Part shown: piece by piece, positions 5,822-31,930 of the stretch
Position numbering within the stretch: position 1 is the first letter of the stretch
Layout: each line of letters starts with the position of its first letter
NCBI GenBank assembly: GCA_026003475.1
Contig: BPHJ01000001.1
Coordinates: forward strand, 1,177,189 to 1,241,188
Direction: 5' to 3'
DNA from: Candidatus Kapaibacterium sp.
Lineage (GTDB): Bacteria; Bacteroidota; Ignavibacteria; Kapaibacteriales; NICIL-2
Length of the DNA: 64,000 nt
Notes under the pieces: generated by a model
Database searches by the model: none
What the model was told of the DNA's origin: nothing
Seen by the model: only the letters and a program-made list of their open reading frames with translations
Made by a program: the position numbers and the translations under genes

Positions 5822-6807
5822 TGTTCGCGCTTCATTTGGCGCGTCATGAGTTCGGTGATGGCGCTGCGTGGATTTTTCCCTTCGAAGAGGATGCAATAGA
5901 CTTGCTCAGCAATTGGCATTTCAATGCCGTAGTCGCTGGCAAGCTCGAGCGTGGAAATGGTCGTCGCGATTCCTTCGGCAACCATTGTCATGGAGGCGAT
6001 GATTTCTTCGAGAGTTTCTCCACGCCCGATACGCTCACCGACCAGACGATTCCGTGAATGGCGCGAGGTGCAGGTCACAAACAAGTCCCCCAGTCCACTG
6101 AGTCCACTAAACGTTAGGGGATTGGCTCCCAGCTCAGTGCCAAGCCGGGTAATTTCCGCAAGACCGCGCGTGACCAGCGCTGCTTTGGTGTTATCGCCCA
6201 TTGCAAGGCCGTCAATAATACCGGCAGCAATGGCGATGACATTTTTGAGTGCACCACCAAGTTCGACACCGACAACGTCGAGCGAGCGGTATATGCGAAA
6301 CGTGGGTGTACTCAGCGCGCGCTGGACAATTTCCGCAGCACTTTCGCTGGTTGAGGCAACAACCACCGTCGTGGGAACGCCACGGGCAACTTCCTCGGCG
6401 TGACTTGGACCGCTCAAGACCGCATAGTCATCACTGGGCGTCCCGAGAACCTCGCGCAGGACTTGGGAAATCCGTAGGTGCGTCCCTCGTTCGATTCCTT
6501 TGGCGGCATTGACGATCAATTTCCCCCGAATGGGAAAGCGATTGCGTTCGACAACCACCCGAAGGTACTGGGTTGGGACCGCATTGATCACCAAATCCGC
6601 ATCCTCGATCGCAGCGGGGTCGGTGGTTGCGACTACGCCAGCCGGGATTGCAATGCCGGGAAGGTACACCGGATTGTCCCGGGATTGGTTGATGTGGTGG
6701 GCAACGCTCTCATTGCGCGCCCAGAGGATAACATGATGCCCGTTGGATGCAGCAATACACGCTAAGGCTGTGCCCCATCCACCCGCGCCCAGGATCGCAA
6801 TAGTCAT
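5818..6807 (-). CDS. gpsA: NAD(P)H-dependent glycerol-3-phosphate dehydrogenase
   Basis: GpsA reduces dihydroxyacetone phosphate to sn-glycerol 3-phosphate for phospholipid synthesis. The Rossmann start MTIAILGAGGWGTALA binds the nucleotide. Later come NAAKGIE, VLSGPSHAEEVARG and GALKNVIAIAAGI, which holds the catalytic Lys, followed by GLSGLGDLFVTC and SRNR. Length is 329 residues, as usual. It lies 13 bases downstream of plsY, which uses its product, so the two form a phospholipid-precursor operon. Confidence 0.96.
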   Translation of the reverse strand: MTIAILGAGGWGTALACIAASNGHHVILWARNESVAHHINQSRDNPVYLPGIAIPAGVVATTDPAAIEDADLVINAVPTQYLRVVVERNRFPIRGKLIVNAAKGIERGTHLRISQVLREVLGTPSDDYAVLSGPSHAEEVARGVPTTVVVASTSESAAEIVQRALSTPTFRIYRSLDVVGVELGGALKNVIAIAAGIIDGLAMGDNTKAALVTRGLAEITRLGTELGANPLTFSGLSGLGDLFVTCTSRHSRNRLVGERIGRGETLEEIIASMTMVAEGIATTISTLELASDYGIEMPIAEQVYCILFEGKNPRSAITELMTRQMKREH

Positions 6808-18046: not shown

Positions 18047-18084
18047 CCAAGGCACTCTCGCACCGAGGGTGCCTTAGGTTTTTT
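18047..18084. terminator. Rho-independent terminator, possibly bidirectional
   Basis: AAGGCACTCT (18049-18058) pairs with AGGGTGCCTT (18066-18075) with one G-T wobble. It is followed on the plus strand by AGG and six T (18079-18084). It lies 43 bases after the surface-protein stop and abuts the convergent kinase-like gene. Confidence 0.75.
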
Positions 18085-20227
18085 AAGACACTGCCAGCGG
18101 CAGAGTAATCAGCGCAACGTTTCCTCCGTCGTCACCGAGCGATTCGACGCTAACCGTTCCGCCCATTCGACGGATCTGCGTAGCAACCAACCCCAACCGG
18201 AAGAGAATGTCATTCTGGTCATCAGCTAACGCCTCAACAAGGTTTCGTTGATGCCGGTTGTAGAGCTGGATCATCTCGGCAACATGCTTGGCATAGGGCG
18301 CAAGAATCTGCACTTCGAGGACTTGTTCTTGGGTGTTGACGATAGTTGTTACTTCGATTGATCCGGTCTGGAGCTGCGTTGTGAGCGCTGCAAAAAGGTG
18401 TGTCAATGCTTGTACTGCGGTCTGCTCTTCGACGTTGAGGAGCGCACTACCAGCGACGCTTCGCTCGATGAATGAACACATGCCATCGGTAGCTCGATAA
18501 CGGTGTTGCGCCTGGCGCAGAATAGCTTCCAATTGGACGGCATGTTCTGTTCCGTTCAGCTCATCATGGGCAGCATCGAGTAAGTCACTGACGATTGCAA
18601 AGAGCCGATCGGAACTCTCGTTGGCAAGTTTGACGAACTGAAGCTGGCGATTGTCGCTTGCGTCCATGCTCATCACCATTTGGTGCATGCCTTCCAGTGT
18701 CGTTACCAGCGACGAACGCAAATACCGCGTCAAGCGTCGGATGAACGAAGACTTCGAGGCATTTGCTTCCAGTGCCAATTGTTCTGCCAGTTGAACTTGT
18801 CGTGTGCGAAGCTCCAGTTCAGCTTGCGCCTCACGCTCGAGTGTGATATCACGCCCAACGACGTACGCAATCTGCTCATCAGCCGCAATGGAGAGTTTCC
18901 AGCTAATCCAGCGTAGCGTTCCGTCGGCTGCGAGCATGGGAAGATTCACGTGATTGCTGACATCTCTCTTGGAAAGGGCGCTGAGGAATTGAATTCGCGC
19001 TTGTTCATTGGCGATGTGTTGCGTCACAAGCGATCCGATCACGCTCTCGGGCAAATACCCCAGAACTCCTTCGATTGCCGGGTTCACTGATTGCCACTTG
19101 CCATCGAGTGTAATGGTACCAATGATGTCGCGCGATGCCTCCAAGATTCGACGGTTACCCTCGGTGATTCGATCGGCAAGCGCAAGCGCACGTTGGTGCC
19201 CGCTGAGCACCGACAATATAAATCCGCACAGAATGAGGGTTGTTGCTATCCCACCGAGCAAAGCAAAAAGACCAAAGTAGTTCTCGATTCCTGATGTAAA
19301 ATCGGGTGCACTTTGGAATTCGAGCTTGAACCGGCGATCTGCTATTGTCAATAGCTTTTCTGCTTTCAACGCCTCGGGACGGCTCCCAAACGATGCTCCT
19401 GCTGGTGCAAAGGTGGCGATGACACTCGGCGAACGCTCCGACCAATGATCCAATACCCGGAATTCGATATTGCGATCAGACGCAACGCTATCACCAAGGG
19501 AACGGCGGAGAAATTCCTTCATGTCAATTTCGACGAAGAGCACACCATCGAACCTGGAATGTGCGGTAGGCAGGAGCACTTCATCGGTGCGCTGCTTGTG
19601 CTGCGTGGCGATCATCAGAAAAAGGCTCGACGTATCACGCCGAAAGGGGAACACTTCCGTTGCAACTGCGGATCGCAACTGTTGGGCGCGTGTTATTACT
19701 TCCGCAAACTCAGGTCGGCTCAGAAGGTCATACCCAACCATTGCACTCTGCTTAGGGTACGGCACCAGATACAGCACCGGTGCATAGAGCGCTCGCTTAC
19801 CTTCGGGATGGATGCGGTAGTTGTAGTACCGTTCCGACCGTGCGTAAAAAACAAACTCCCCCAGCTCTGCCTCTGAAACAAGGTTTGCATAGCCAATACT
19901 GCGGATGGCAGGGTTCGACTCTGCCGGAACGGTTGAGTACAGCTCGAACACATCGCGGACAACTTGGACACTGTTTCGGTAGAGTGCGTCAAGGTTGTGG
20001 AGGACGTTTTCGTACGTGGTAGTTCCCTGCTCTAACCGCGCGACGACCGAATTGACTGCCTTATCGAACTCCATCTGACGTTTGGCATGGAGCGAGTCGT
20101 CGAGCAACCGCATTACCCCATAGCTGATGGCAAAACCAACCAGCGCAATTGCGGTAACCTGAAGATACTTCGACCGGGGAAGACGAACCGTCGAGGGCGC
20201 GGCTGTAACGGTGCTTGCTGTGTACAT
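18083..20227 (-). CDS. CHASE-PAS sensor protein with degenerate histidine-kinase module
   Basis: This 714-residue membrane sensor has TM1 at about 25-42 and a ~270-residue periplasmic CHASE-like region (NPAIRSIGYANLV, then VLFVEIDMKEFLRRSLG). TM2 lies near GLFALLGGIATTLILCGFIL, followed by a PAS/PAC pair (GTITLDGKWQSVNPAIEGVLGY and YVVGRDITLEREAQAELE) and a dimerisation helix. Where kinases have SHELRTPL, this protein has TRYLRSSL: the phosphoacceptor His is Arg501 (codon CGG at 18727-18725) and the next Glu is Tyr502. The C-terminal ATPase-like domain has no clear N-box or G1 and ends in a remnant of the G2 region. It therefore looks like a pseudokinase sensor. It ends the surface locus whose first gene is a response regulator. 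Confidence 0.8.
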   Translation of the reverse strand: MYTASTVTAAPSTVRLPRSKYLQVTAIALVGFAISYGVMRLLDDSLHAKRQMEFDKAVNSVVARLEQGTTTYENVLHNLDALYRNSVQVVRDVFELYSTVPAESNPAIRSIGYANLVSEAELGEFVFYARSERYYNYRIHPEGKRALYAPVLYLVPYPKQSAMVGYDLLSRPEFAEVITRAQQLRSAVATEVFPFRRDTSSLFLMIATQHKQRTDEVLLPTAHSRFDGVLFVEIDMKEFLRRSLGDSVASDRNIEFRVLDHWSERSPSVIATFAPAGASFGSRPEALKAEKLLTIADRRFKLEFQSAPDFTSGIENYFGLFALLGGIATTLILCGFILSVLSGHQRALALADRITEGNRRILEASRDIIGTITLDGKWQSVNPAIEGVLGYLPESVIGSLVTQHIANEQARIQFLSALSKRDVSNHVNLPMLAADGTLRWISWKLSIAADEQIAYVVGRDITLEREAQAELELRTRQVQLAEQLALEANASKSSFIRRLTRYLRSSLVTTLEGMHQMVMSMDASDNRQLQFVKLANESSDRLFAIVSDLLDAAHDELNGTEHAVQLEAILRQAQHRYRATDGMCSFIERSVAGSALLNVEEQTAVQALTHLFAALTTQLQTGSIEVTTIVNTQEQVLEVQILAPYAKHVAEMIQLYNRHQRNLVEALADDQNDILFRLGLVATQIRRMGGTVSVESLGDDGGNVALITLPLAVS

Positions 20228-20333
20228 GCCGTTCTAACCTGTAAGCATACTGACGGTTAGTGTATCGGCACTTGTCAGAAAAAGTGTAGCTGCCCTCGGC
20301 CGCCCTTGTGGCGCGACGTAGCCCCGCCTCCTC

Positions 20334-21695
20334 CTACTGAACGACAGTGATTTCGACGCGGCGATTGGCCAAGCGGCCTTGCGGCGTACGATTGCTCTGA
20401 ATCGGGCTCCGAGCGCCCATCCCGGATGCGAGGAGTCGTTCACGTGGGATTCCTTTGCTCAAGAGGTAGCGAACCACCTGGAGCGCTCGTTCGTCGGATG
20501 CACGCTGGGTTGCTGCAGGCGTGCCACCGAAGTTGTCCGAGTGTCCGACGATCCGTACTTCGGCGCGTGGATTCTGCTTGAGATACTCAGCCAGTGCATC
20601 CAAGTAGCGGCGCAGCTCATCAGTCAGTGCTGTGTCGGTTGGGTTTCGGTAGCCAGTGAAGATTTGGAGTTGATTGGGCACAACCCGCGGCAGTGGTGGC
20701 GCAGGAGTCGCTGTCGGTGCTGGCGGTGGAGCAATATCCACTGGTGCAACGGTCGGTAGCAGCGTCGCAATGTAGAGGCCCTGCGTTGGTTGGACGGGGA
20801 GGCTCAACTGTTGCGACGACGCAGCCGCAATCGGTGGTGGTGCTGCCTGCGGTACCGTCGGATCACGAGGCAGAATCATCTCCGTGATGACGTCATGTCC
20901 GAAGGTCAAGCTTGCACCACCGCGGAGATAGGCGCTGTTCCAGTTCGAACCGTTCTTCGAGTAGCTCGTTGTTCCAACGTGCAGCGTCACAAACGGCGTG
21001 AGCGTCATGCGCCAATTGCCAATCAAGCCAGCAAACAAGTCCCAACCAGCACCAATATGCCCGCCAACTCGCAAATAGTTCGGCTGGAAACCAACCCGCC
21101 GTTGCACATCAATGCGCTCATCGTTGTAGTGAACATCGGTCCGCTGGAGTGTTTTTGTTGTGAGCACGTCAACATCCAACCCAGCCAGAAAATGCAGCCC
21201 GGGGTAGTCGCTGTAGTTGTAGCGAGCTTGTGGCATGAACGTGATGTAGGTGAGCGTGTTTTGTGCAACGATGGTGTTATCCAGTTCGAAGGATGGATTC
21301 ACGGGCATATCAGGCAGGCGTGTCACCGATGTTGTCTGCCGAATATCAACGATGCTGACCATAAACGAAACGCCCCACTTCGATCCTTGTGGGTGGAAAA
21401 CATACTGTCCACCAATGCCAAGACCACCACCACCAACACCCCCACTGTTCAGGAGTAAATAGCCATCGGTGGGACAGACCAAATTAGCAGGGATAATCAG
21501 CTTCCCAAAGTGCATGTGATATGTACCCGAGATCATCGGTCCTACGCGCCAATCACCAGGCGACCGCATCAGAACGACAGTATCGCCATCGTCGCGAACA
21601 TAGCGCAGCCCGAGCGTATCAATCCCAGCCACCTGTGACCACAGAGACACGCTCACTATTATCAACACACCGAAACATACACGCAGGCTTCGCAT
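20334..21695 (-). CDS. Outer-membrane protein with C-terminal OmpA peptidoglycan-binding domain
   Basis: This protein has 453 residues with a signal peptide (about 1-23). The N-terminal ~270 residues look like an outer-membrane beta-barrel or beta-sandwich (alternating aromatic strands, for example YLRVGGHIGAGWDLFAGLIG). A Pro/Ala-rich linker (about 280-340) follows, then an OmpA domain (about 345-453) with VRIVGHSDNFGG, SDERALQVVRYLLSKGI and GARSPIQSN...NRRVEITVV. It probably ties the outer membrane to peptidoglycan. It lies 5 bases downstream of the sorting-domain protein gene in the surface locus. Confidence 0.85.
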   Translation of the reverse strand: MRSLRVCFGVLIIVSVSLWSQVAGIDTLGLRYVRDDGDTVVLMRSPGDWRVGPMISGTYHMHFGKLIIPANLVCPTDGYLLLNSGGVGGGGLGIGGQYVFHPQGSKWGVSFMVSIVDIRQTTSVTRLPDMPVNPSFELDNTIVAQNTLTYITFMPQARYNYSDYPGLHFLAGLDVDVLTTKTLQRTDVHYNDERIDVQRRVGFQPNYLRVGGHIGAGWDLFAGLIGNWRMTLTPFVTLHVGTTSYSKNGSNWNSAYLRGGASLTFGHDVITEMILPRDPTVPQAAPPPIAAASSQQLSLPVQPTQGLYIATLLPTVAPVDIAPPPAPTATPAPPLPRVVPNQLQIFTGYRNPTDTALTDELRRYLDALAEYLKQNPRAEVRIVGHSDNFGGTPAATQRASDERALQVVRYLLSKGIPRERLLASGMGARSPIQSNRTPQGRLANRRVEITVVQ

Positions 21696-21700
21696 GGCAA

Positions 21701-23035
21701 TTAGCGCAGTAGTTGAATCTTCAGTATCGCACGCGAAAGCTCGATGGTTGGGTCATCAACCGGCCGAGCAATGAGGACGACGGTGTAGAGTCCTTGCGAT
21801 GCTTGATCTGGTGCATTCCAGATAATCGTGTTCACCGTTCCTGGCTGCGATCGAGGCACAATTTCATTGTCGAGGAGCAGTGCCAATTCCTTGCCTGTGA
21901 CATCATACACTTTCGCTGACAGGCGGACGCGATCCTCGACCGTGTAGCGGATGGTTGCTTGGGTTGTTGTCGGATTCGGAAAGACCGTTGCCGATGAGAT
22001 GATGCTGTTGGGAATGCGAATGGAAGTTGTATCCAAAAAGCGTCGGCTGCCATCGTACATGATTGCCGATAGCTCGTATTCATATTCCAGGTCCCGAAGG
22101 TTCACCGTGTCCGGCGTTGACATAGTGTAGTCGAACCCAACGGTGGTTGTGCCTTTCGAGAAGAGTGCTGTGTCGAACGGAATACCGAATCGGCGTACTT
22201 CGCGGAACTCGGTCTCGCTTGGTGGCAGTGTTGAACAGAGGCAGCGCCGACGGATGATAAACCCCCGCACACCCTGTTCGCACAAGGTTGACCAGTACAG
22301 TTGCACAAGACGATCGCCAAGGTACTCTGCTCGGAAACTATCGGTCTTGAGAGTCAAGCACGGCTCGGGTGCCGGTGCAACTCTGAATGAATCGGTACGC
22401 ACGATCACATTCTGTACCGAATCATCCACACGCGGATAGTTTCGCATCTCGATGTTATCGTCGGCTCGATACCAACGCACACCATAGGCAATGCTGTCAA
22501 CCTCGAGTTTGTACGCGTTGGCTTGGTAGTAATCGAGCGGTTCCATCCACGCGACAGCAGTTCCGATGCGTCCGCCATCGGTCATTGTCACCCGAAAGCG
22601 TCCCAATCGGAGCGCTGAATCGAGCGGGAAATACTTCGCATCGCGGAACTGATCGGGACCATAGATGAACACCGAGATCCACCCTTCGTGCTGGGTGATG
22701 CAGTAGCTATAGGCAGAGAGCGGAGCGTTCGCGTAAGCAGCAATTGGCAGGTCTGATGTGTTTGGCAAGAGCTCAACTCGCATGGCGGAAGGATCGTACC
22801 GACCACTGGAGACACCAACAAGTTGGAACTGGAAGGTTCCATTGGCCCACCGTTCCCAGACTGAGGATGTGCGTTTGAGCGTGAGTGTAAACTCCAGCGT
22901 CTGCGGATCAACAACGGCAACGTTTTCGATCGAGACAATCGAGAGAATATCGCGCTGGACTTGCTGTGCTGGAGCGGTCAGCACGCAGGCGACGCCAACA
23001 AGAAGTCGAGCTACTATCGTAATGATTCGTCTCAT
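21701..23035 (-). CDS. T9SS sorting-domain surface protein
   Basis: This 444-residue protein has a signal peptide (ending LTAPAQ) and a C-terminal Por secretion sorting domain (about 355-444): ATVFPNPTTTQATIRYTV, then LSAKVYDVTGKELALL and GLYTVVL. The middle has a fibronectin-like segment with LVQLYWSTLCEQGVRGFIIRR and a DLEYEYELSAI strand pattern. It is predicted to be secreted and surface attached. Its ATG overlaps the stop of the dockerin-like protein gene (ATGA), so it is translationally coupled in the surface locus. No enzymatic motif is seen. Confidence 0.75.
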   Translation of the reverse strand: MRRIITIVARLLVGVACVLTAPAQQVQRDILSIVSIENVAVVDPQTLEFTLTLKRTSSVWERWANGTFQFQLVGVSSGRYDPSAMRVELLPNTSDLPIAAYANAPLSAYSYCITQHEGWISVFIYGPDQFRDAKYFPLDSALRLGRFRVTMTDGGRIGTAVAWMEPLDYYQANAYKLEVDSIAYGVRWYRADDNIEMRNYPRVDDSVQNVIVRTDSFRVAPAPEPCLTLKTDSFRAEYLGDRLVQLYWSTLCEQGVRGFIIRRRCLCSTLPPSETEFREVRRFGIPFDTALFSKGTTTVGFDYTMSTPDTVNLRDLEYEYELSAIMYDGSRRFLDTTSIRIPNSIISSATVFPNPTTTQATIRYTVEDRVRLSAKVYDVTGKELALLLDNEIVPRSQPGTVNTIIWNAPDQASQGLYTVVLIARPVDDPTIELSRAILKIQLLR

Positions 23036-25167
23036 CGTGGCACGTTCGTTGTTCGACCGCGGTTATTCCAGGTTTTATTTGCATCGCGCGTAGTCACGAT
23101 GCCGCTGAGATCGGTATCGCGATTGAGATATCCTTCCTGCACACAACCATTCCAGATTGCATCGTAGTCAGTACGGTCGGCTGCATCAATACTGCCGTCG
23201 CCATTGACGTCCCCGGCGACCATCCCGAACACAACACCATCGGTGGGGCTGTAATCAATCGGTTTGAGTGCTACCGCGCCACCGAAAACAGCCGTTGGTG
23301 CGCTGAGGAGCTGTACATGAGCAGGTTGGTCATCGCTTGCCAAGCGAATCGGTGCTGCAGTCATGATGGCAAGGTGCGTCCGGTGGTGAATCGCAACGTA
23401 ATAGGTAATGCTATCCACTGTTGGATCGAAGCAGAGCCGCGAGCTCCCATCCACATCAACAATCACACCATCGGCACGCAGAAGTGCAGTGCGATAAACC
23501 CGCTGCTGGTTTGATGGGCTCCCCGGTCGCAGCTCGACGAGCACCCAATCAACGATGCTCGAATCAATTGTCCGCGCATTGATTGCAGTCCGGTTGGGAT
23601 CGCGGTTGTAGGGGTAGATGTTCGGTGGCGTTGAGGGAATGAGTCGGCGGCGTGCAAGATCGGTCGCCATGGCGCCATTACGGTATGGACCTTCGAGGAG
23701 GACCCGTGCATCCAAGCAAACTTGCACCGGCACTGGATACCCTATCGCAAATGGACCGAGCACCGACAGAGTATCGGCAAGCGAGTAGGCCCAGCCACTG
23801 GAATCGAGAGTAGCTGGTATCCGCGATGAACGTACATTCCGCCACCGCGCACCATTCCAGTGAAGGAGGATGACCTTTGTTCGATCAAGACCATTGGATT
23901 CGTCGGTTGCTGGTTCGGACGGCGTATCGAGCCACCCATAGCCGAACGTGTATGGCATGGATGCAAGGAGCGCTCCCTGTCGATCGGTTGCGTCCACAAA
24001 GAATGCGCGGCGTGCCTTGCTCGTACCATCGGGATATGGGGGAAACGTCGCCGGAAGTGTTCTAACTGTTACAGCACCGGGAAGGCTGCTTGATGGCACG
24101 CGAAGCGCAAGCCAGGTGAAACGATTCGTGTAGAGTTGCTGCGTGCTGTCCCCCCGCAAGCCTGTTCGCCGCAACGATCCCACAACCTCCGACCGTGGGT
24201 GGGAATAGATCGGGTCCAGCAATGCTGGAGTGTAGGTCAGGATATACCGCTCGACGGAATCACGCTCAGTGACAAGGAACGTCGGATAGGTCTGTGTGCC
24301 AACAACGAGCGAATCGTTGACCGTCACGTGACGATCGAGCTGCACTCCTCCGCGTGCATAGACCACCAACGATTGCAGCACAGTATCCGACGGAGGCACT
24401 TCATTTCCCGTCAGAATCCGTCCTACTCCTTCGTACCGAATCGAGTAGCCATCGGTCCAACGCAGGAATGCAGCCACTGACGCAGAATCTGTTCGAATAA
24501 CCAGCGATCGTGGTAGCATGATCACGTTGTTCGTGTCTGAATTCCGAAGTTCGCCACGATGGAGAAACAAGGTATGCCGGAGTGCGATCGCTGCAGAATC
24601 GCTCATGGTTGCACCGGCAGCATTATCGAGCTCAAGTGCACTCATTCTGCCGCGTCCGCTGAGCAATTGTTCGGTTGCCCCTTGGAGAATGACTGCTCCC
24701 CAGCTTCCATCATCGTTTACCGAGCCATCGTGATGCACTCGTCCCTGAGCGATGAGAGGATATGCTTGGGAAATTTTAAGTTGACTCGGCTGTTCGACGA
24801 CAAGCGTATCGCGGCTCACCAGCGAGCGCCCAGACGATGAATCAAGTTGCTTAATGCTTCGACCGCGGAAGTACAGGACCGCGTAGGTAATCTGTGGTAC
24901 GCGTTGGGATGCATTGATTGTATCACCGAGGAATTCGGTACGCCCATCCAACACCGGCTGCTCAATCTGTGCATCACCGGTAATGGTGATCACTCCTCTA
25001 CCGTTGCTGACCGTCGCACCTGAATGGCTCTGCAAATGCCCCCGTACCTCAATGCGACCGGCGTTGACGATTCGTCCGCAGGCCGAATTGTCGAGCACTT
25101 GCTGTGCGTGGATAGACACCACAGCCAGCCAGAAGATAGCAACAATTGAAGCGAGCACTCTATTCAT
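23032..25167 (-). CDS. Secreted surface protein with C-terminal dockerin-like calcium loops
   Basis: This protein has about 711 residues from ATG 25167, chosen because a clean signal peptide follows (MNRVLASIVAIFWLAVVSIH, then AQQ) and because it overlaps the upstream stop by 8 bases. The frame runs open further upstream but without a signal. The mature N-terminus SACGRIVNAGRIEVRG is related to that of the upstream gene (DACGRINNTGTIRLRT), so the two are paralogous there. The last ~60 residues contain two EF-hand-like loops, DVNGDGSIDAAD and DTDLSGIVTTRD, typical of type I dockerins. No sorting domain is evident. The function is unknown; a structural or adhesive surface role is an inference from the neighbours. 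Confidence 0.65.
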   Translation of the reverse strand: MNRVLASIVAIFWLAVVSIHAQQVLDNSACGRIVNAGRIEVRGHLQSHSGATVSNGRGVITITGDAQIEQPVLDGRTEFLGDTINASQRVPQITYAVLYFRGRSIKQLDSSSGRSLVSRDTLVVEQPSQLKISQAYPLIAQGRVHHDGSVNDDGSWGAVILQGATEQLLSGRGRMSALELDNAAGATMSDSAAIALRHTLFLHRGELRNSDTNNVIMLPRSLVIRTDSASVAAFLRWTDGYSIRYEGVGRILTGNEVPPSDTVLQSLVVYARGGVQLDRHVTVNDSLVVGTQTYPTFLVTERDSVERYILTYTPALLDPIYSHPRSEVVGSLRRTGLRGDSTQQLYTNRFTWLALRVPSSSLPGAVTVRTLPATFPPYPDGTSKARRAFFVDATDRQGALLASMPYTFGYGWLDTPSEPATDESNGLDRTKVILLHWNGARWRNVRSSRIPATLDSSGWAYSLADTLSVLGPFAIGYPVPVQVCLDARVLLEGPYRNGAMATDLARRRLIPSTPPNIYPYNRDPNRTAINARTIDSSIVDWVLVELRPGSPSNQQRVYRTALLRADGVIVDVDGSSRLCFDPTVDSITYYVAIHHRTHLAIMTAAPIRLASDDQPAHVQLLSAPTAVFGGAVALKPIDYSPTDGVVFGMVAGDVNGDGSIDAADRTDYDAIWNGCVQEGYLNRDTDLSGIVTTRDANKTWNNRGRTTNVPR

Positions 25168-27367
25168 CGCCAACTTGCAGTCGTCCTGCATTTTGTATCC
25201 AGCCAGTGTTACGAAGAGTGTTGACCCGGACCGTTGGGCGTGGCTCCGATGCGAAGATGACCAAGCCACGTTCCTTCGGTTGAGCCGATGTGGTTCGAAT
25301 CGCAAACTGTTCGAAATCTCCTGCCGAGAGGTTCTCGCGAGGCGTTGCTGTTGTGTCGCAGCCAGTGATGACGAGTTCGCCGTTGCGCCCAATCGTCGAG
25401 GACAGGTAATCGTTGGCACCACCAATGATGAACAAGCCGCCCGTTGCCGGTGCTGTCGAATCGGTTCCGAAGATCAAGGCTGCGGTGCTGGTCGAATGGT
25501 CAACGATTACGCGTGCTGCCATTGCAAGCGGATATGCTTCTGGCACTGAATAGCCATCCCAACCATTAGCAGCCGGACGAGTAAACCCAACCCATACGTT
25601 ATGCAGCACCAACGCAGTGTCGTACGGCAGTGGTTCGCTTTGGTCCATCCACGTCTGCGGGTTCGACCACCGACCATCACGCACGCTGATCACACGCGAA
25701 GGTGCGGCCCGTAAGAGCAGGTCGCTCCCATCGAGCAAACCATTTGCTCCACTCGATGCAATCGAACGCGCTTCGATCCAAAGAAACTGACAGTTTGTAT
25801 CGAGGCTGCGTGTGTATGCCGTACCAATGCGGTTCGGCAGACTTGAGCGCGGTGCATTGTAGGTCCGCAGCCCTCGAATGGATGCCAAACCGGAGAGCTG
25901 ACGTGCTTCGTCGAGTCGAAATGCCGCACGCACACGCGCTACCCACGCAGCCGGACCACTGCTTGTGCCATATCCGATGGTAATCTTTCGTCGGACGTCG
26001 GTAGTTGCATTGTAACTATTTGGCGCGGTCGAAGGCAGAACGCTCAGCGTGATGCTCGACGGCATTCCGCTTGTATCACTAAACACGAGCGTTGTAAACC
26101 GATTGTTGAAGACCAGAGGCTGCGTGCCAACGGTGGTGCTGTGCAATCCTTCGTGGCGCAATCGTCCGATCACTTCTGAGCTGGATTGGCAGTCGCTGAG
26201 TTGCGTATCGTAGGCAATTGGTGTCAGTGAGGAATCGCTATGATGGATGGTGAGCGTGTAGTCTTCCATCCTGATTGCATGAGGCGTTGGACCGGTGTTC
26301 ACCACTAACCCACACCCGACATGGACATCGCCGTTTGCCACTTTGGATCCCCCTTGAGTTTCCAGCTTTCCATAGCGATGATCGGGTTCAGCAGCGGTTG
26401 CTTGAAGCGTCTGCCCATCCACACTGCTCAGGTATCGAACGGTTGTTCCACATTCGTAGGTAGCATTGAGCAGTGAGGGTGCCGTATTGAGGTAGGTACC
26501 AACGACATCCATTGCTGCTGTACCAAGCAACGAGAAACGCCCAGCGATCCCGCTTGCGTTGATGCGGAAGATCGAACCTGAGTCAATGACAATTGCAGCA
26601 GGTTGTTGGGTGCTCGAGACAAGCACGTGTCCACTGTTATCGGCAGTCAAGCGCGAGGAGTTGGTCACCCGAAGCCATGCGGTCGGTACCTGCAACAGTA
26701 CGGCACTACCGGTTCCGACAACCGCCATCGGAGCTGCCGTTTCCGAGCGTCCACGCAAATCGAGAACACCGGCACTGTTGACACTAAAGCCGCCAGCATT
26801 CGAAGCATGATTGATGAAGAAACCACGCACGGTTGCCGTGTCGGTGGATAAGAGCTTGCCTTGGCCACTTGCGCCATTGAGCAGGACAAGGTTTTGGTAG
26901 GCGTTACCCCCTTTTTCCGGGACGACGCGTTGTTGCTGCATGCCATCGTAGTAGAACGTTCCCTCGTAGGTACGGATACCGGTCAGCGGTGCGATGCGAT
27001 ACTCTGCACCAACGAACACCGAATCACTAACTGCTTTTGAGCCACCGCTGAGGTGCAAATTTGTGTACCACCGCGACTGCACACGTTGGGCATTGTCGGT
27101 TGCCGACCAGAGCACAATGCCACCGATTCGACGCGATTGAGTTGATCCGAGCGCAACGCTACCAGTGAACCGATTCCCAATGGCAGCCATTTCGATCGTG
27201 CCGGCATTGGTGACTTGGGAAATCGGAGCTTCGTTTTGGAAGACAGCATTGACGGTCCGGAGGCGGATTGTTCCAGTGTTGTTGATTCGGCCACAGGCGT
27301 CATTGACGACGTTCTGCGCAGAGGCTGCAACGAACCCAAGCAGGAAAAGCAATAGTGGAGCAATCAT
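25160..27367 (-). CDS. Secreted surface protein of unknown function (ACGRI family)
   Basis: This 735-residue protein begins with a signal peptide (MIAPLLLFLLGFVAASAQ). The body is rich in short beta repeats with Thr, Ser, Val and Gly (for example TIEMAAIGNRFTGSVALGS and LTSTD-like strands), suggesting a beta-helix or stacked beta-sandwich. The mature N-terminus NDACGRINNTGTIRLRT resembles that of the next gene downstream. The ATG overlaps the preceding 155-residue gene in an ATGA. I do not recognise a named domain. Confidence 0.6.
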   Translation of the reverse strand: MIAPLLLFLLGFVAASAQNVVNDACGRINNTGTIRLRTVNAVFQNEAPISQVTNAGTIEMAAIGNRFTGSVALGSTQSRRIGGIVLWSATDNAQRVQSRWYTNLHLSGGSKAVSDSVFVGAEYRIAPLTGIRTYEGTFYYDGMQQQRVVPEKGGNAYQNLVLLNGASGQGKLLSTDTATVRGFFINHASNAGGFSVNSAGVLDLRGRSETAAPMAVVGTGSAVLLQVPTAWLRVTNSSRLTADNSGHVLVSSTQQPAAIVIDSGSIFRINASGIAGRFSLLGTAAMDVVGTYLNTAPSLLNATYECGTTVRYLSSVDGQTLQATAAEPDHRYGKLETQGGSKVANGDVHVGCGLVVNTGPTPHAIRMEDYTLTIHHSDSSLTPIAYDTQLSDCQSSSEVIGRLRHEGLHSTTVGTQPLVFNNRFTTLVFSDTSGMPSSITLSVLPSTAPNSYNATTDVRRKITIGYGTSSGPAAWVARVRAAFRLDEARQLSGLASIRGLRTYNAPRSSLPNRIGTAYTRSLDTNCQFLWIEARSIASSGANGLLDGSDLLLRAAPSRVISVRDGRWSNPQTWMDQSEPLPYDTALVLHNVWVGFTRPAANGWDGYSVPEAYPLAMAARVIVDHSTSTAALIFGTDSTAPATGGLFIIGGANDYLSSTIGRNGELVITGCDTTATPRENLSAGDFEQFAIRTTSAQPKERGLVIFASEPRPTVRVNTLRNTGWIQNAGRLQVGDE

Positions 27368-27831
27368 GGCTGTCCGACCTCGATAGTTCCACTGTTGGTA
27401 AGTGTGCCCCGATTGACGAAGTCGCGCCAGACAACTATCGTCGCACTATTCTGGATTTCACCTTCGCTGGTAAGTCCACCTTTGATCGTCAGTGTTCCTG
27501 TTCCAGCGCGGACCAGAAAGCCATACGCAACCGTGCATGGTACCCCACCTGTGGTCAGATTACTATCCACCACCGCAATCGATCGCCCGTTGAATGTAGC
27601 CCGACCAGAGGTTACGTGCATCGAACCAGTAACACTCAACGATGCGCTATCCTCGGCGGTGAGCTGACCGTTGGCTACACTTGTGTAGGTACCGCTTACC
27701 TGCATGACTGCTCGGGGTGAAAGGTAAACGGTGCCGCCATTGTTGGTCATAATCTGTGCCTCTGCAGCCAGACTGCTTAGTGCCAACATCAAACCAACGC
27801 TCAGGATCACACGCACTGCTGCCATTTTCAT
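27364..27831 (-). CDS. Small secreted beta-repeat protein
   Basis: This is an exported protein of about 155 residues. The start MKMAAVRVILSVGLMLALSS at 27831 gives a clean signal peptide; ATGs at 27846 and 27864 are alternatives. The mature part is a run of short beta motifs (GTVYLSPRAVMQVSGTYTSV, GRATFNGRSIAVVDS, GTLTNSGTIEV). The NxGTIxV pattern is shared with the two larger proteins downstream, so it may be a short paralogue or co-assembling subunit. It is coupled to the 735-residue gene by ATGA. Confidence 0.55.
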   Translation of the reverse strand: MKMAAVRVILSVGLMLALSSLAAEAQIMTNNGGTVYLSPRAVMQVSGTYTSVANGQLTAEDSASLSVTGSMHVTSGRATFNGRSIAVVDSNLTTGGVPCTVAYGFLVRAGTGTLTIKGGLTSEGEIQNSATIVVWRDFVNRGTLTNSGTIEVGQP

Positions 27832-27891
27832 CAGAGTGGTTATCATCACATCAAGTATCGGCATCGCAACAAGAGGCTTTACTACGAGGAA

Positions 27892-30800
27892 TTACTGAAT
27901 TCGCGTAAACTTCAGATACGAGCTTGTGCGAGCAGTCGTTGGGGTAGCATCTGCAGTGTTCTGTGCCCACTGCAGCCGCACAGTGCCGCTACCACTGCCC
28001 ATGATGACAATACCGCGGACGAAGACAACAGCAGAGCCACCAGCAGGAATCTCAACCGATGCACTGCCGCTACTGAGTACGCCAGCCCGGAAACCTGTTG
28101 GCGAGCCATCGTTGCTATGGTAACTGAGCTTGAATGTCGCACCCGAGGGTACGCTCAACCCGAACGCAACATCAGGTGTTGTCGACGATGAGCTAAAATC
28201 GAGCATCCCTTCGACTTCCCACACTTCACCTGCACCGAGCGTTGCAAACAAGTGGTCATCATCCTGCAGTGCATTCGAATTGCTAACACTTTCATCACTG
28301 GTTTTGTAGCGCGTTACAATGGTTGAATTAGCAGAAACGGTACTGATGAGCGGTAACCACCGCGTACCGTCATAGTACCAGTAGCCTTCCTGCGATGTCG
28401 TGGTTACGTAGACAATCAACCCTTCTGCTGGCGAGGCAATCGCATCACGTTCGGTTGCTGTCATACGTGGAGGCAAAAATCCTCTGGTTGTGCTACTGAT
28501 TTCAACAGCGGCGGAGCTTTGCGGTGCGTTCGTACCGATGCCGATACGCCCGTCAGCCGTGATACGAAGCCGCTCTTGGTTGTTGGTCATGAGCGGAAGT
28601 GCAACGTTATCTTTGGAGCCGAACGCTTGCTCTGTACCGAGAGTATTCCCCCCAAGCAGCCAGGTCGTCCCACCGAATACGCTTGTCGGCGATGCCCATT
28701 GCGGAGCTGCCGATAGCCCCTGTGAGATAAGAACTTGACCTGGAGAACCTGCTCCGAAGCCACCACCCTGAAGCGATGCCACCAGCTCTCCAGAAATGTT
28801 GAGGTGATGGACGTAGGTGCGGTTGGGATTTCCGTTGGGCAAAAGTGTATTCCGAAGCGGTGTGGGAGTCAGTGAGTCCACATGTCCCAAATACACGTTC
28901 CCACCGGCACCGGAAACAAGTGCGTAGTTGTTCGTTCCTCCAGCAGCAACAAGATACCCGCCGACGTTGAGGTACGAGGTCGCTTGCTTGGATGCCGAGA
29001 ATGCCATCGTCACCGTGCTCGCAGCATCCGAACCAGGAACGCTTCCGATCGAATACACTGCAAGCGCACTGTAGTTGGCTTGGGTTGTATTGTCCGAGAT
29101 TTGGACGGTTCCGAAAGCGTTGCTGGCTGTTGAACTTGTCCCGATGCCGAGCGCAATTTTGCCATCAGCTTTGATTCGCATGCGTTCGGTGTTGTTGGTG
29201 CGAATTGCCAATGCCCGGTTATCCGTCGTACCAAGGAAATTGAATTGGGGGGCGTCGGGATTGGTGCCACTATTACCGAGAATCGTCCATGCTCCCAGGG
29301 ATGCCGCTGTGATTGTTTGCCAGCTCGGTGCAGCCGACCCATTTGAAATGAGTACTTGTCCAGGCGAACCGGTACTGGTGAATGCAAGGGTTATCCCATT
29401 GGAATATGCAATGGAGCCTGCAGAGCCGATGGTGCTGATACCAGTGCCACCTTTGTTTATGGGTAGCACACCAGCAACTTCCTGCGTTCCAAGGTCCACC
29501 GCCGTTGTCAACGAACCAAGCCCAACGAACTGATTTGCTTGCACAATGCCCGTTCCACCGGGCAATAGCACCGAACCACTCCCCACTGTGAGCGTTTGGT
29601 TGGTATTGACCCCAGTCTTGATCGAGTCGAAGGGTACCGAAATATTAATCGGCTTGGTTATGATGAGTGAGTCTGTCCGGAGAATAGAGACCGACAGCGT
29701 ATCAATCCGGCCGTCCCGAACGTACAGCGTGTCGAACCGTCCAAAACGTCCAATCAAACTGTCTATACGCGCAATCTGGCTCCACAGCGTATCAATCCGC
29801 CCATCACGCGAATAAATCGTGTCGGCTCGGCCTACCTGCGTGTAAAGCGTATCAATCCGGCCATCCCGAACGTACAGCGTGTCGAACCGTCCAAAGCGCC
29901 CAATCAAACTGTCTATACGCGCAATCTGGCTCCACAGCGTATCAATCCGCCCATCACGCGAATAAATCGTGTCGGCTCGGCCTACCTGCGTGTAAAGCGT
30001 ATCAATCCGGCCATCCCGAACGTACAGCGTGTCGAACCGTCCAAAGCGCCCAATCAAACTGTCTATACGCGCAATCTGGCTCCACAGCGTATCAATCCGC
30101 CCATCACGCGAGTAAATCGTGTCGGCTCGGCCTACCTGCGTGTAAAGCGTATCAATCCGGCCGTCCCGAACGTACAGCGTGTCGAACCGTCCAAAACGTC
30201 CAATCAAACTGTCTATACGCGCAATCTGGCTCCACAGCGTATCAATCCGCCCATCACGCGAATAAATCGTGTCGGCTCGGCCTATGCGCGTGTAAAGAGT
30301 ATCAATCCGGCCCGCACGTGCATAGAGTGTATCCGTTGCCAACTGTTGGAGTATCAGACGGCGCACATGGAGGGAATCGAGTGTTTTTGTCCATTGCGGC
30401 TGGGACGCTGGACCATTGCTTACCAACAAGTCACCAGGTTGCCCAGCATTTCCGCTCAGTTGGAGCAATGCACTTGGTCCTTGCAAGTTGAGCCCTGCAG
30501 CGGTAATCTGACCTCCTGCGTTGACTTGGAACTGCGAAGCGTTCCCAACCGACAGCAGTGATAGCGGATTGTTTGTCCCAATCCCAACATTGCCCGATGG
30601 AGTAATCCGAAGACGTTCTTGACCGTTTGTCTTCAAAATCAGCGGTTGAGCATCGGTCGTTCCAAGAAAATTCATCGTGGGATCAATACCGGTATTCCCC
30701 TGCAGGCTCCAAAAACTTCCACTTCCCGTCGCGAACGGTACCCAGTTAGGCTCCGTGGGCGTGCCCTCGTTGTACTCAAAGCGGTTAGTGGTTGAATTGA

Positions 30801-31026
30801 AGATCAAAAGGCTTTTCGCTGGAAGCACGATGGTATTCCGTTGCGTAGTTGTCAAGCGGGGAATAAGCAGCCCTTGGCGCTGGGAGCGTAGTTCCAGCAA
30901 CGCCGACGTATCCGGCGTCGTGGTGCCGATACCAACGTTTCCGTCTGCCCAGAGACGGGTAGTTGTGGCTCCCACAAGCAAGACAACTGCTGCACTACAG
31001 ATTCGGAGAAAGGATCGCTGTCGCAT
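27892..31026 (-). CDS. Fibre-like secreted protein with decapeptide repeats
   Basis: This protein has about 1044 residues from ATG 31026, where a signal peptide begins (MRQRSFLRICSAAVVLLVGA). The mature N-terminus DGNVGIGTTTPDTSALLELR and several later copies (GNVGIGTNNPLS, GRIGIGTNAPQSSAAVEI) are typical of tail-fibre-like and trimeric surface proteins of Bacteroidota. Residues about 243-442 are four 50-residue repeats, each made of five decapeptides of the form xxxR[IFA]D[TS][LI]xx. Longer paralogous blocks (FLGTTDAQPLILKTNGQERL and FLGTTDNRALAIRTNNTERM) flank it. The C-terminus is a beta-rich domain ending YLKFTRIQ, with no clear sorting signal. It is the first structural gene of the locus. 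Confidence 0.7.
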   Translation of the reverse strand: MRQRSFLRICSAAVVLLVGATTTRLWADGNVGIGTTTPDTSALLELRSQRQGLLIPRLTTTQRNTIVLPAKSLLIFNSTTNRFEYNEGTPTEPNWVPFATGSGSFWSLQGNTGIDPTMNFLGTTDAQPLILKTNGQERLRITPSGNVGIGTNNPLSLLSVGNASQFQVNAGGQITAAGLNLQGPSALLQLSGNAGQPGDLLVSNGPASQPQWTKTLDSLHVRRLILQQLATDTLYARAGRIDTLYTRIGRADTIYSRDGRIDTLWSQIARIDSLIGRFGRFDTLYVRDGRIDTLYTQVGRADTIYSRDGRIDTLWSQIARIDSLIGRFGRFDTLYVRDGRIDTLYTQVGRADTIYSRDGRIDTLWSQIARIDSLIGRFGRFDTLYVRDGRIDTLYTQVGRADTIYSRDGRIDTLWSQIARIDSLIGRFGRFDTLYVRDGRIDTLSVSILRTDSLIITKPINISVPFDSIKTGVNTNQTLTVGSGSVLLPGGTGIVQANQFVGLGSLTTAVDLGTQEVAGVLPINKGGTGISTIGSAGSIAYSNGITLAFTSTGSPGQVLISNGSAAPSWQTITAASLGAWTILGNSGTNPDAPQFNFLGTTDNRALAIRTNNTERMRIKADGKIALGIGTSSTASNAFGTVQISDNTTQANYSALAVYSIGSVPGSDAASTVTMAFSASKQATSYLNVGGYLVAAGGTNNYALVSGAGGNVYLGHVDSLTPTPLRNTLLPNGNPNRTYVHHLNISGELVASLQGGGFGAGSPGQVLISQGLSAAPQWASPTSVFGGTTWLLGGNTLGTEQAFGSKDNVALPLMTNNQERLRITADGRIGIGTNAPQSSAAVEISSTTRGFLPPRMTATERDAIASPAEGLIVYVTTTSQEGYWYYDGTRWLPLISTVSANSTIVTRYKTSDESVSNSNALQDDDHLFATLGAGEVWEVEGMLDFSSSSTTPDVAFGLSVPSGATFKLSYHSNDGSPTGFRAGVLSSGSASVEIPAGGSAVVFVRGIVIMGSGSGTVRLQWAQNTADATPTTARTSSYLKFTRIQ
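29699..30298 (-). repeat. Four tandem 150-bp in-frame repeats (each five 30-bp units)
   Basis: Copies start at 29699, 29849, 29999 and 30149. They differ at only a few positions. The outer copies share one variant (CCGTCCC, AAAACGTCC on the plus strand) and the two inner copies share another (CCATCCC, AAAGCGCCC); these changes are synonymous. Each copy encodes RDGRIDTLWS, QIARIDSLIG, RFGRFDTLYV, RDGRIDTLYT, QVGRADTIYS. Partial units flank the array on both sides. Confidence 0.95.
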
Positions 31027-31122
31027 CGTCGGAACCTGATTCGGTTGTGGTACTATTGCCGCTGTCAATGAGATTCTGCGTACCGCTACAGTGCGAGTGT
31101 AATGCTCGTCGCGATACAAGTG

Positions 31123-31168
31123 CAAATTAGAACTCCCTTTTACCGGCAGCAATACGTACTACTACGTA
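31123..31168 (-). promoter_or_regulatory. Putative promoter and operator region of the fibre gene
   Basis: On the minus strand a TAATTTG element (31129-31123) predicts a transcript start near 31116. Two TACGTA palindromes (31153-31158 and 31163-31168) are spaced exactly 10 bases apart, one helical turn. They sit about 37-52 bases upstream of that start, where activators usually bind. An alternative sigma-70-like reading, TTGCAC (31125-31120) with an 18-base spacer and TACACT (31101-31096), overlaps it. Confidence 0.3.
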
Positions 31169-31198
31169 ATTTCACCCGAAGCAGGTAGAGACCAACTC

Positions 31199-31900
31199 TT
31201 AGGTATTGCTGGGATCTTTGCTGCGGTGAGGAACAAAAAACATCGAGTGCATGAGGGCGTACCGCACAAGCGAGGCTGCATTTTTTGCACCAAGTTTCTC
31301 CATCAAGTGGGCGCGGTGCGTCTCAACCGTGCGTGGGCTGATGAAGAGCCTGTCGGCAATTTCGTTGCTGGTTAGGCCTTGAGCAACCAGTTCGAGAATT
31401 TCCTCCTCTCGTTTGGTCAGCGTCACGGGCGGTAGCGGGTCGCGCGGGGAGTCATGCGAACCGTGCATGAGCGCCAAGACTGAGCGCGAAAACACCCGCT
31501 CTCCTTTAAGCACCGACCGGAGAGCATCGAGCAGCTCTTGTCGCGTGACGTCTTTCGATAGATACCCATCGGCACCGATCGCTAATGCCTGTTCGAGGTA
31601 GTACCGATCCTCAAAGGTTGTCAACATGATAATGTATGGCCGCCCAGCTGGAATTTGCTCCCGTAATGCACGAACAGTTTCTAAACCATTTTTCCGTGGC
31701 ATGAGGATATCAAGCAAGAGAACATCCGGCTTGAGCGACTCGACTAAAGCAAGTGCCTGCTCACCATCACTGGCTTCCCCAACAACCTCAACTTCAGTAT
31801 CAGCAGCAAGAATACGATACAGCCCGACGCGTGCCAGTTCATGATCGTCAGCAATCACCACACGAATTGTGCTTCGCGCAGTAAGTGGCATTCGTCCCAT
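31199..31900 (-). CDS. NarL/LuxR-family response regulator
   Basis: This is a 233-residue two-component response regulator. The receiver domain has the acidic pair in VVIADDHELARVGL, the phosphoacceptor Asp in VLLDILMPRKNG, Thr in IMLTTFED and Lys in GYLSKD. The C-terminal LuxR HTH reads LTKREEEILELVAQGLTSNE, then SPRTVETHRAHLMEKL. The start at 31900 is supported by GAGGTG 6-8 bases upstream; ATG 31891 is possible. It precedes the fibre and surface genes on the same strand and is a good candidate for their regulator. No intact kinase is adjacent; the CHASE-PAS protein at the other end of the locus lacks its phosphoacceptor. Confidence 0.92.
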   Translation of the reverse strand: MGRMPLTARSTIRVVIADDHELARVGLYRILAADTEVEVVGEASDGEQALALVESLKPDVLLLDILMPRKNGLETVRALREQIPAGRPYIIMLTTFEDRYYLEQALAIGADGYLSKDVTRQELLDALRSVLKGERVFSRSVLALMHGSHDSPRDPLPPVTLTKREEEILELVAQGLTSNEIADRLFISPRTVETHRAHLMEKLGAKNAASLVRYALMHSMFFVPHRSKDPSNT

Positions 31901-31930
31901 CAAGCACCTCATTGAAAACAACCTTGACTA

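Follow-up and report, generated by a model that had tools for sequence, protein, structure and literature searches.

That the number of repeats can adjust the length of a fibre is a published principle (PMC6116203), and rods built in this way follow at least two designs. In the beta-helical design (PMC4576200), represented by the triple-stranded beta-helix of T4 gp5 and VgrG, a short regular octad of the form VxGxxxxx sets the length of the rod by its number. In the other design (PMC6116203), the rod of the R-pyocin fibre and the stem of the phi29 head fibre are trimeric and assembled from repeated short helix-plus-turn units. Here we analysed a window of DNA of 64,000 nt (the whole stretch under study, to which all plain coordinates refer) from a Kapabacteria genus, in which one gene on the minus strand carries a long array of ten-residue units. 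This array probably forms the rod, a stalk or spacer, of an exported, modular surface protein that resembles phage tail fibres.

The gene (27892-31026, minus strand) encodes an exported fibre-like protein of 1044 residues. Its reading frame is open to 31152 (27892-31152); translation probably begins at the ATG at 31026, consistent with the aligned orthologues and with a signal-peptide-like N-terminus, MRQRSFLRICSAAVVLLVGATTTRLWADG. Reading of the translation points to a Sec signal peptide at 30943-31026 (minus), at which no lipobox cysteine was seen. Downstream of it, all on the same strand, lie N-terminal fibre modules of the GNVGIGTTTP... and QERLRI types (30388-30942), which every intact congener and two family-level orthologues (L077, L078) have kept, then a length-variable region of 250 residues (29638-30387) and a C-terminal body of 581 residues (27895-29637), which has the same length in three other full-length orthologues. 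A head-like domain occupies the C-terminal end of this body (27895-28314, minus). The fibre protein itself showed no type IX sorting tail, and in full length it had no Pfam match to a YadA-type C-terminal anchor.

Its kinship with phage fibres was indicated by two sets of matches. The N-terminal and central modules matched PHROG tail-fibre families 9942 (E 8.6e-15) and 18345 (E 3.5e-13), including a match to residues 132-177. The C-terminal domain of 140 residues resembled minor tail proteins of actinophages (Streptomyces phages Stigma and Beuffert, Gordonia phage Frokostdame), at about 30-34% identity over 97% and a best E of 7e-14; a low-confidence model gave weak jelly-roll-like matches here. 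These likenesses support, at the level of sequence, the name "fibre protein" that a preliminary description of the locus had used. There are also differences. The actinophage genes adjoin phage structural genes whereas the gene in the window sits in a bacterial operon of exported proteins, and no phage structural genes were seen beside it, its neighbours being a regulator, exported proteins, an OmpA-family protein and a histidine kinase. Modular tail fibres of phage and Bacteroidota type (PHROGs 9942, 18345 and 22284) share similar N-terminal and central modules and a repeat-bearing modular layout, but they match only partially, and the long, strict decapeptide array is the window protein's own. 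No relatives were found on viral contigs in scans with the whole protein or with the stalk, nor did a search of the phage collection reveal any decapeptide array. Pfam, NCBIfam and PHROGs have no curated entry for the repeat, and a literature search for decapeptide repeats as a beta-helix or trimeric fibre returned nothing relevant.

The fibre gene heads a row of six closely spaced genes, all on one strand and all for exported proteins, which are separated by gaps of 27 and 5 nt or overlap by 4-8 nt. The second, 27 nt downstream, encodes 166 residues (27364-27864) and the third, overlapping it by 4 nt, 735 residues (25160-27367); both are exported proteins of no known function. They are followed by a gene for an exported protein with a weak dockerin-like C-terminus (23032-25167; PF00404, E 0.065, below the cut-off; likely start near 25167, frame open to 25425), one for a 444-residue protein with a weak type IX secretion C-terminal sorting domain (21701-23035; PF18962, E 0.002, below the cut-off) and, last, one for an OmpA-family outer-membrane protein (20334-21695; PF00691, E 2.7e-17). 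The block is opened by a LuxR-type response regulator (31199-31921; PF00072, PF00196) and closed by a CHASE-PAS sensor histidine kinase (18083-20227; PF03924, E 5.5e-22; HisKA weak), also on the minus strand. The whole stretch from 18083 to 31921 may thus be a surface operon under two-component control. The same gene order was found in the congeners, as far as the compared flanks extend.

The array itself is real. At 29696-30312, Tandem Repeats Finder reported a 150-bp unit in 4.1 copies, with 97% matches, no indels and a score of 1157. When the window was shuffled 20 times under a first-order Markov model, the top score was 55, which rules out a chance origin. In-frame translation yielded 22 tandem decapeptides (29680-30339, minus) with the consensus R-[IVF]-D-[TS]-L-[YFW]-[ST]-R-x-G, 20 of which make up four 150-bp blocks (29710-30309, minus) of five decapeptides each. 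The preliminary description had reported these four copies of five ten-residue units, as we find, and had placed them at 29699-30298, a span that holds the repeats but falls short of the full array on both sides. Pooling the window with its orthologues gave 36 distinct units, whose consensus is R-[I/V/F]-D-[T/S]-L-[Y/F/W]-[S/T]-R-x-[G/A]; D3 never varies among them and L5 hardly does.

Codon alignment of the four blocks showed that copies 1 and 4 have the opposite state to copies 2 and 3 at coding positions 111, 114 and 147 of the block, all three sites being synonymous and linked; the A-B-B-A order of alleles, with an outer and an inner pair, had been described before and is borne out here. 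Copy 2 carries one further private synonymous site, and blocks 2 and 3 differ by this single base. In the N-terminal edge copy (about 30280-30298) three base differences lead to two residue changes, R-I versus Q-V, alongside one extra synonymous T/G change. The earlier statement that the differences between copies are synonymous therefore applies to most sites but not to this edge copy, which lies within the range it covered. If single changes fell at random in the block, about 26% of them would be synonymous, and an excess of silent changes is visible among the copies, though the sites are few and linked.

Between species, dN was 0.04-0.27 in the stalk (stalk ends) and 0.08-0.16 in the body of the protein, with dS at or beyond saturation. 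By these estimates the stalk is under purifying selection, no stronger than that on the rest of the protein. The preliminary description had spoken of strong protein-level constraint; constraint is apparent between species, but four near-identical copies cannot show it, and it does not exceed that of the remainder of the protein.

Decapeptides are carried by five of the six genomes of the genus. Orthologues of the fibre gene are present in four congeneric metagenome-assembled genomes (MAGs), labelled Chlorobiota or Candidatus Kapaibacterium, and the gene is intact in three of them, where only the repeat region differs in length (166, 130 and 196 residues, against 250 in the window). The flanks are constant in the window and these three orthologues, with 213-214 residues before the repeat region and 581 after it. 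The 22 decapeptides of the window compare with 10, 14 and 17 in the full-length orthologues (L034, L033 and L035, respectively), as expected if length varies with copy number, which the preliminary description had proposed. The stalk changes in ten-residue steps between species, with the exception of one six-residue unit. This shortened unit (RFDTLV or RFDTLF before VRDTL, at about 5928-5945) is common to L033 and L035; because it breaks the ten-residue period in two species, the structure evidently tolerates the loss of four residues.

The fourth orthologue (L036 with L014) is interrupted by contig ends within its array. In L036 a 90-bp block of three units has been amplified (3.0 copies, 93% alike), in contrast to the 150-bp block of five units in the window; L033 and L035 have an older 90-bp structure. 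That the sister lineage amplified a different block supports the recent expansion or homogenisation of the array suggested earlier. It could be argued that the exact number of four blocks is an artefact of assembly, given that blocks 2 and 3 are separated by one base and that a congeneric MAG is broken within this very array. The block boundaries are in frame, however, the four copies can be told apart, and orthologous assemblies independently hold long arrays of the same decapeptide units, and we regard an artefact as improbable.

Outside the genus, the two genomes from other genera of the family (L077, L078) keep both ends of the protein at about 55-60% identity, while unrelated modules replace the decapeptides in the middle. 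A scan of 395 genomes of the phylum detected four D-[ST]-L motifs spaced exactly ten residues apart in three genomes of this genus and three others; the latter had one or two matches each, and at least two of them look like simple or unrelated repeats. The arrays thus occur essentially only in this genus. Since the older ends are kept in the family, the decapeptide rod is most likely an innovation of the genus inside an older protein, as far as the compared sequences indicate. Weak matches in other families of the order included true leucine-rich repeat (LRR) and pentapeptide proteins and were set aside as repeat noise. A modular fibre-like protein with tandem NQMGA-TGQILKWNGT modules (L017, G035:C7), unrelated to the present one, was observed in a different genus of the order.

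The sixth congener (L079, G005:C1:972000-982000), a single-contig genome, has a near-complete deletion bounded by the response-regulator and histidine-kinase genes. All that is left of the fibre gene is an N-terminal stub, and two genes downstream of it survive as fragments; the exported-protein operon is missing as if lost as one unit. With one congener lacking most of it, the fibre gene must be dispensable.

A giant paralogue (L009) is found in the same genome as the window, at about 35-44 kb of C1 (G000:C1:33500-44500). It consists of alternating modules of 345 bp and 408-411 bp, each with 3-6 decapeptides and then a PFDSVKSG module, which also follows the array in the window. The two proteins share the module order QTPEWTW-decapeptides-PFDSVKSG and the period of ten but differ in what has been amplified, namely whole modules in the paralogue (345 and 408-411 bp) and decapeptides in the window protein. 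The frame of L009 is broken up, so that three ORFs of 644, 468 and 2248 residues overlap, through either a sequencing error or a true frameshift, and its array periods of 346 versus 345 bp suggest single-base shifts.

Which fold the decapeptides adopt was considered from structure models and residue periodicity. An AlphaFold2 model of the whole protein had a pLDDT of 35 and was uninformative for the stalk. A model of 15 units (with 18 rows) was all-beta, with one strand per decapeptide and no helix, at a pLDDT of 48 and a pTM of 0.37. This second model superposed on MfpA without gaps (Z 14.3, rmsd 2.6 over 146 residues), although its pLDDT is only 48, and, at Z 12-14, on further pentapeptide proteins and on synthetic solenoids. 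In the superposition, positions 2 and 7 would correspond to the central buried residues in MfpA numbering, and positions 5 and 10 to the second buried ones.

Such a fit would suggest that the decapeptides form a monomeric, four-sided beta-helix like the right-handed one of the pentapeptide repeat proteins, with two units per coil and a sequence code unlike theirs. The low-confidence model shares with these proteins (PF00805; MfpA, Qnr, HetL) the four-sided coil of 20 residues and the inward pattern at 3-2-3-2 spacing, and in the orthologues and the paralogue hydrophobic or small residues predominate at positions 2, 5, 7 and 10, which have this spacing, as such a core would need. Pentapeptide repeats are defined by at least eight contiguous repeats of the consensus [STAV][DN][LF][STR]G (PMC8145042). 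The window array lacks this motif and has a period of ten with two unlike halves, and searches with the full protein, its stalk, an orthologous stalk and a paralogous module gave no PF00805 match even with an E limit of 1. Foldseek searches of the stalk model against the PDB and viral models gave nothing below E 0.001 (E 0.06 or worse in the PDB). Paralogue modules have only 3-6 units, few coils for a free-standing solenoid. Because AlphaFold2 over-predicts beta-solenoids for near-perfect repeats (PMC11795689), the four-sided model was not taken at face value. Taken together with its low pLDDT and pTM, this makes the four-sided helix unlikely, at perhaps one chance in a few. The "novel solenoid or trimeric stalk" proposed in the preliminary description is not established by the two monomer models (pLDDT 35 and 48). 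The second of them is regular and all-beta rather than the unpacked disorder that the description had named as a refutation, but it has low confidence and is of a kind that AlphaFold2 tends to invent for repeats.

An intertwined trimeric rod is a more serious candidate, if still somewhat short of an even chance. It could be a triple-stranded beta-helix or prism of the phage-spike kind, or be built from short helices and turns in the manner of the R-pyocin and phi29 fibres. The remainder of the protein resembles phage fibre proteins, and a turn could be marked by the Gly or Ala of position 10 and the Asp of position 3. T4 gp5 and VgrG likewise have a short regular repeat, but theirs is an octad; the window has the decad R-phi-D-[TS]-L and no VxG octads, and there was no sequence match to any solved fibre, including those of R-pyocin and phi29. 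Helix was not predicted for the window decapeptides, which also sets them apart from the helix-plus-turn rods. A sequence search of the PDB with a stalk profile gave nothing significant, nor did one with the C-terminal domain.

Periodicity also bears on whether the decapeptides are a trimeric alpha-helical coiled coil with a decad repeat (10/3), as in the stalks of trimeric autotransporters. The window stalk has hydrophobic power at both 3.33 and 2.5, the former in keeping with a decad, and positions 2, 5 and 9 are often hydrophobic. The RxD motif is also reminiscent of right-handed autotransporter stalks. The stalk has no power at 3.5, 3.6 or 3.67, however, and thus no heptad or hendecad periodicity. 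The paralogous modules (L009 and congener L028) lack the 3.33 signal, with hydrophobic power of 9.5-9.6 at 2.5 but 1.4-1.5 at 3.33 and 0.3-1.7 at 3.5-3.67. Most units have Gly at position 10, and neither AlphaFold2 model has helix in the decapeptides. A continuous ten-residue coiled coil is further disfavoured because 10/3 is regarded as the lower limit of coiled-coil periodicity, seen only locally as stammers with 3-10 helix (PMC4786415). We therefore consider this fold very improbable.

Several database matches of the stalk were rejected. The isolated stalk (29650-30339) matched Cas3-like_C_2 (PF22590) at 37.2 against a cut-off of 27 bits, but the score sums short matches to 26 of 106 model positions, and the whole protein was below the cut-off; this is a false positive that automatic annotation could adopt. 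The NCBIfam cas3_core match likewise summed short matches to a stretch of 25-26 residues, as did those to Proteasome_A_N and PhoU. LRR-like signals were seen with phmmer (stalk versus Leptospira LRR proteins, E 3.9e-6) and tblastn (an LRR protein of Leptospira phage LE1). An LRR identity was rejected since the period is 10, not that of the 20-24-residue LRR motif, and no Pfam LRR match was found; LRR-like matches of the full-length AlphaFold2 model fell in a part with a pLDDT of 25-33.

The reading of the array as an adjustable stalk draws on the fixed ends, the variable repeat region, the lineage-specific amplification of 150-bp or 90-bp blocks and purifying selection. The rod would set the distance between the N-terminal base and a C-terminal head that may bind a receptor or matrix, and gain or loss of blocks by unequal crossing-over or slippage would tune its reach, leaving both ends undisturbed. 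Less certainly, each decapeptide might be one beta element of an elongated helical rod in which positions 2, 5, 7 and 10 point inward and R1, D3, T/S4 and R8 outward. By analogy with phage fibres, a trimeric state is plausible. Against a surface stalk stand the low-confidence structure models, the dispensability of the gene in one congener and the missing type IX sorting tail and lipobox, which leave the anchoring unexplained; against a beta rod, the 3.33 periodicity and the i/i+3/i+7 spacing also fit a short-helix-plus-turn rod.

We tentatively suggest, as an idea with the odds against it, that R-phi-D-[TS]-L-x5 is a new rod-forming repeat, beta-helical or intertwined trimeric, whose ten-residue code alternates between two unlike halves and which arose in one genus and is length-tuned by block amplification. 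The general principle would be unchanged, repeat-tuned fibres being already well known; the repeat itself is tidy and uncatalogued, and it could serve as an engineering rod if its fold is regular. If the stalk reading is right, this locus would be a clean natural case of a fibre whose length is tuned by repeat number between two fixed ends, amplification having happened independently at least twice in the genus, where a paralogue grows by entire modules instead.
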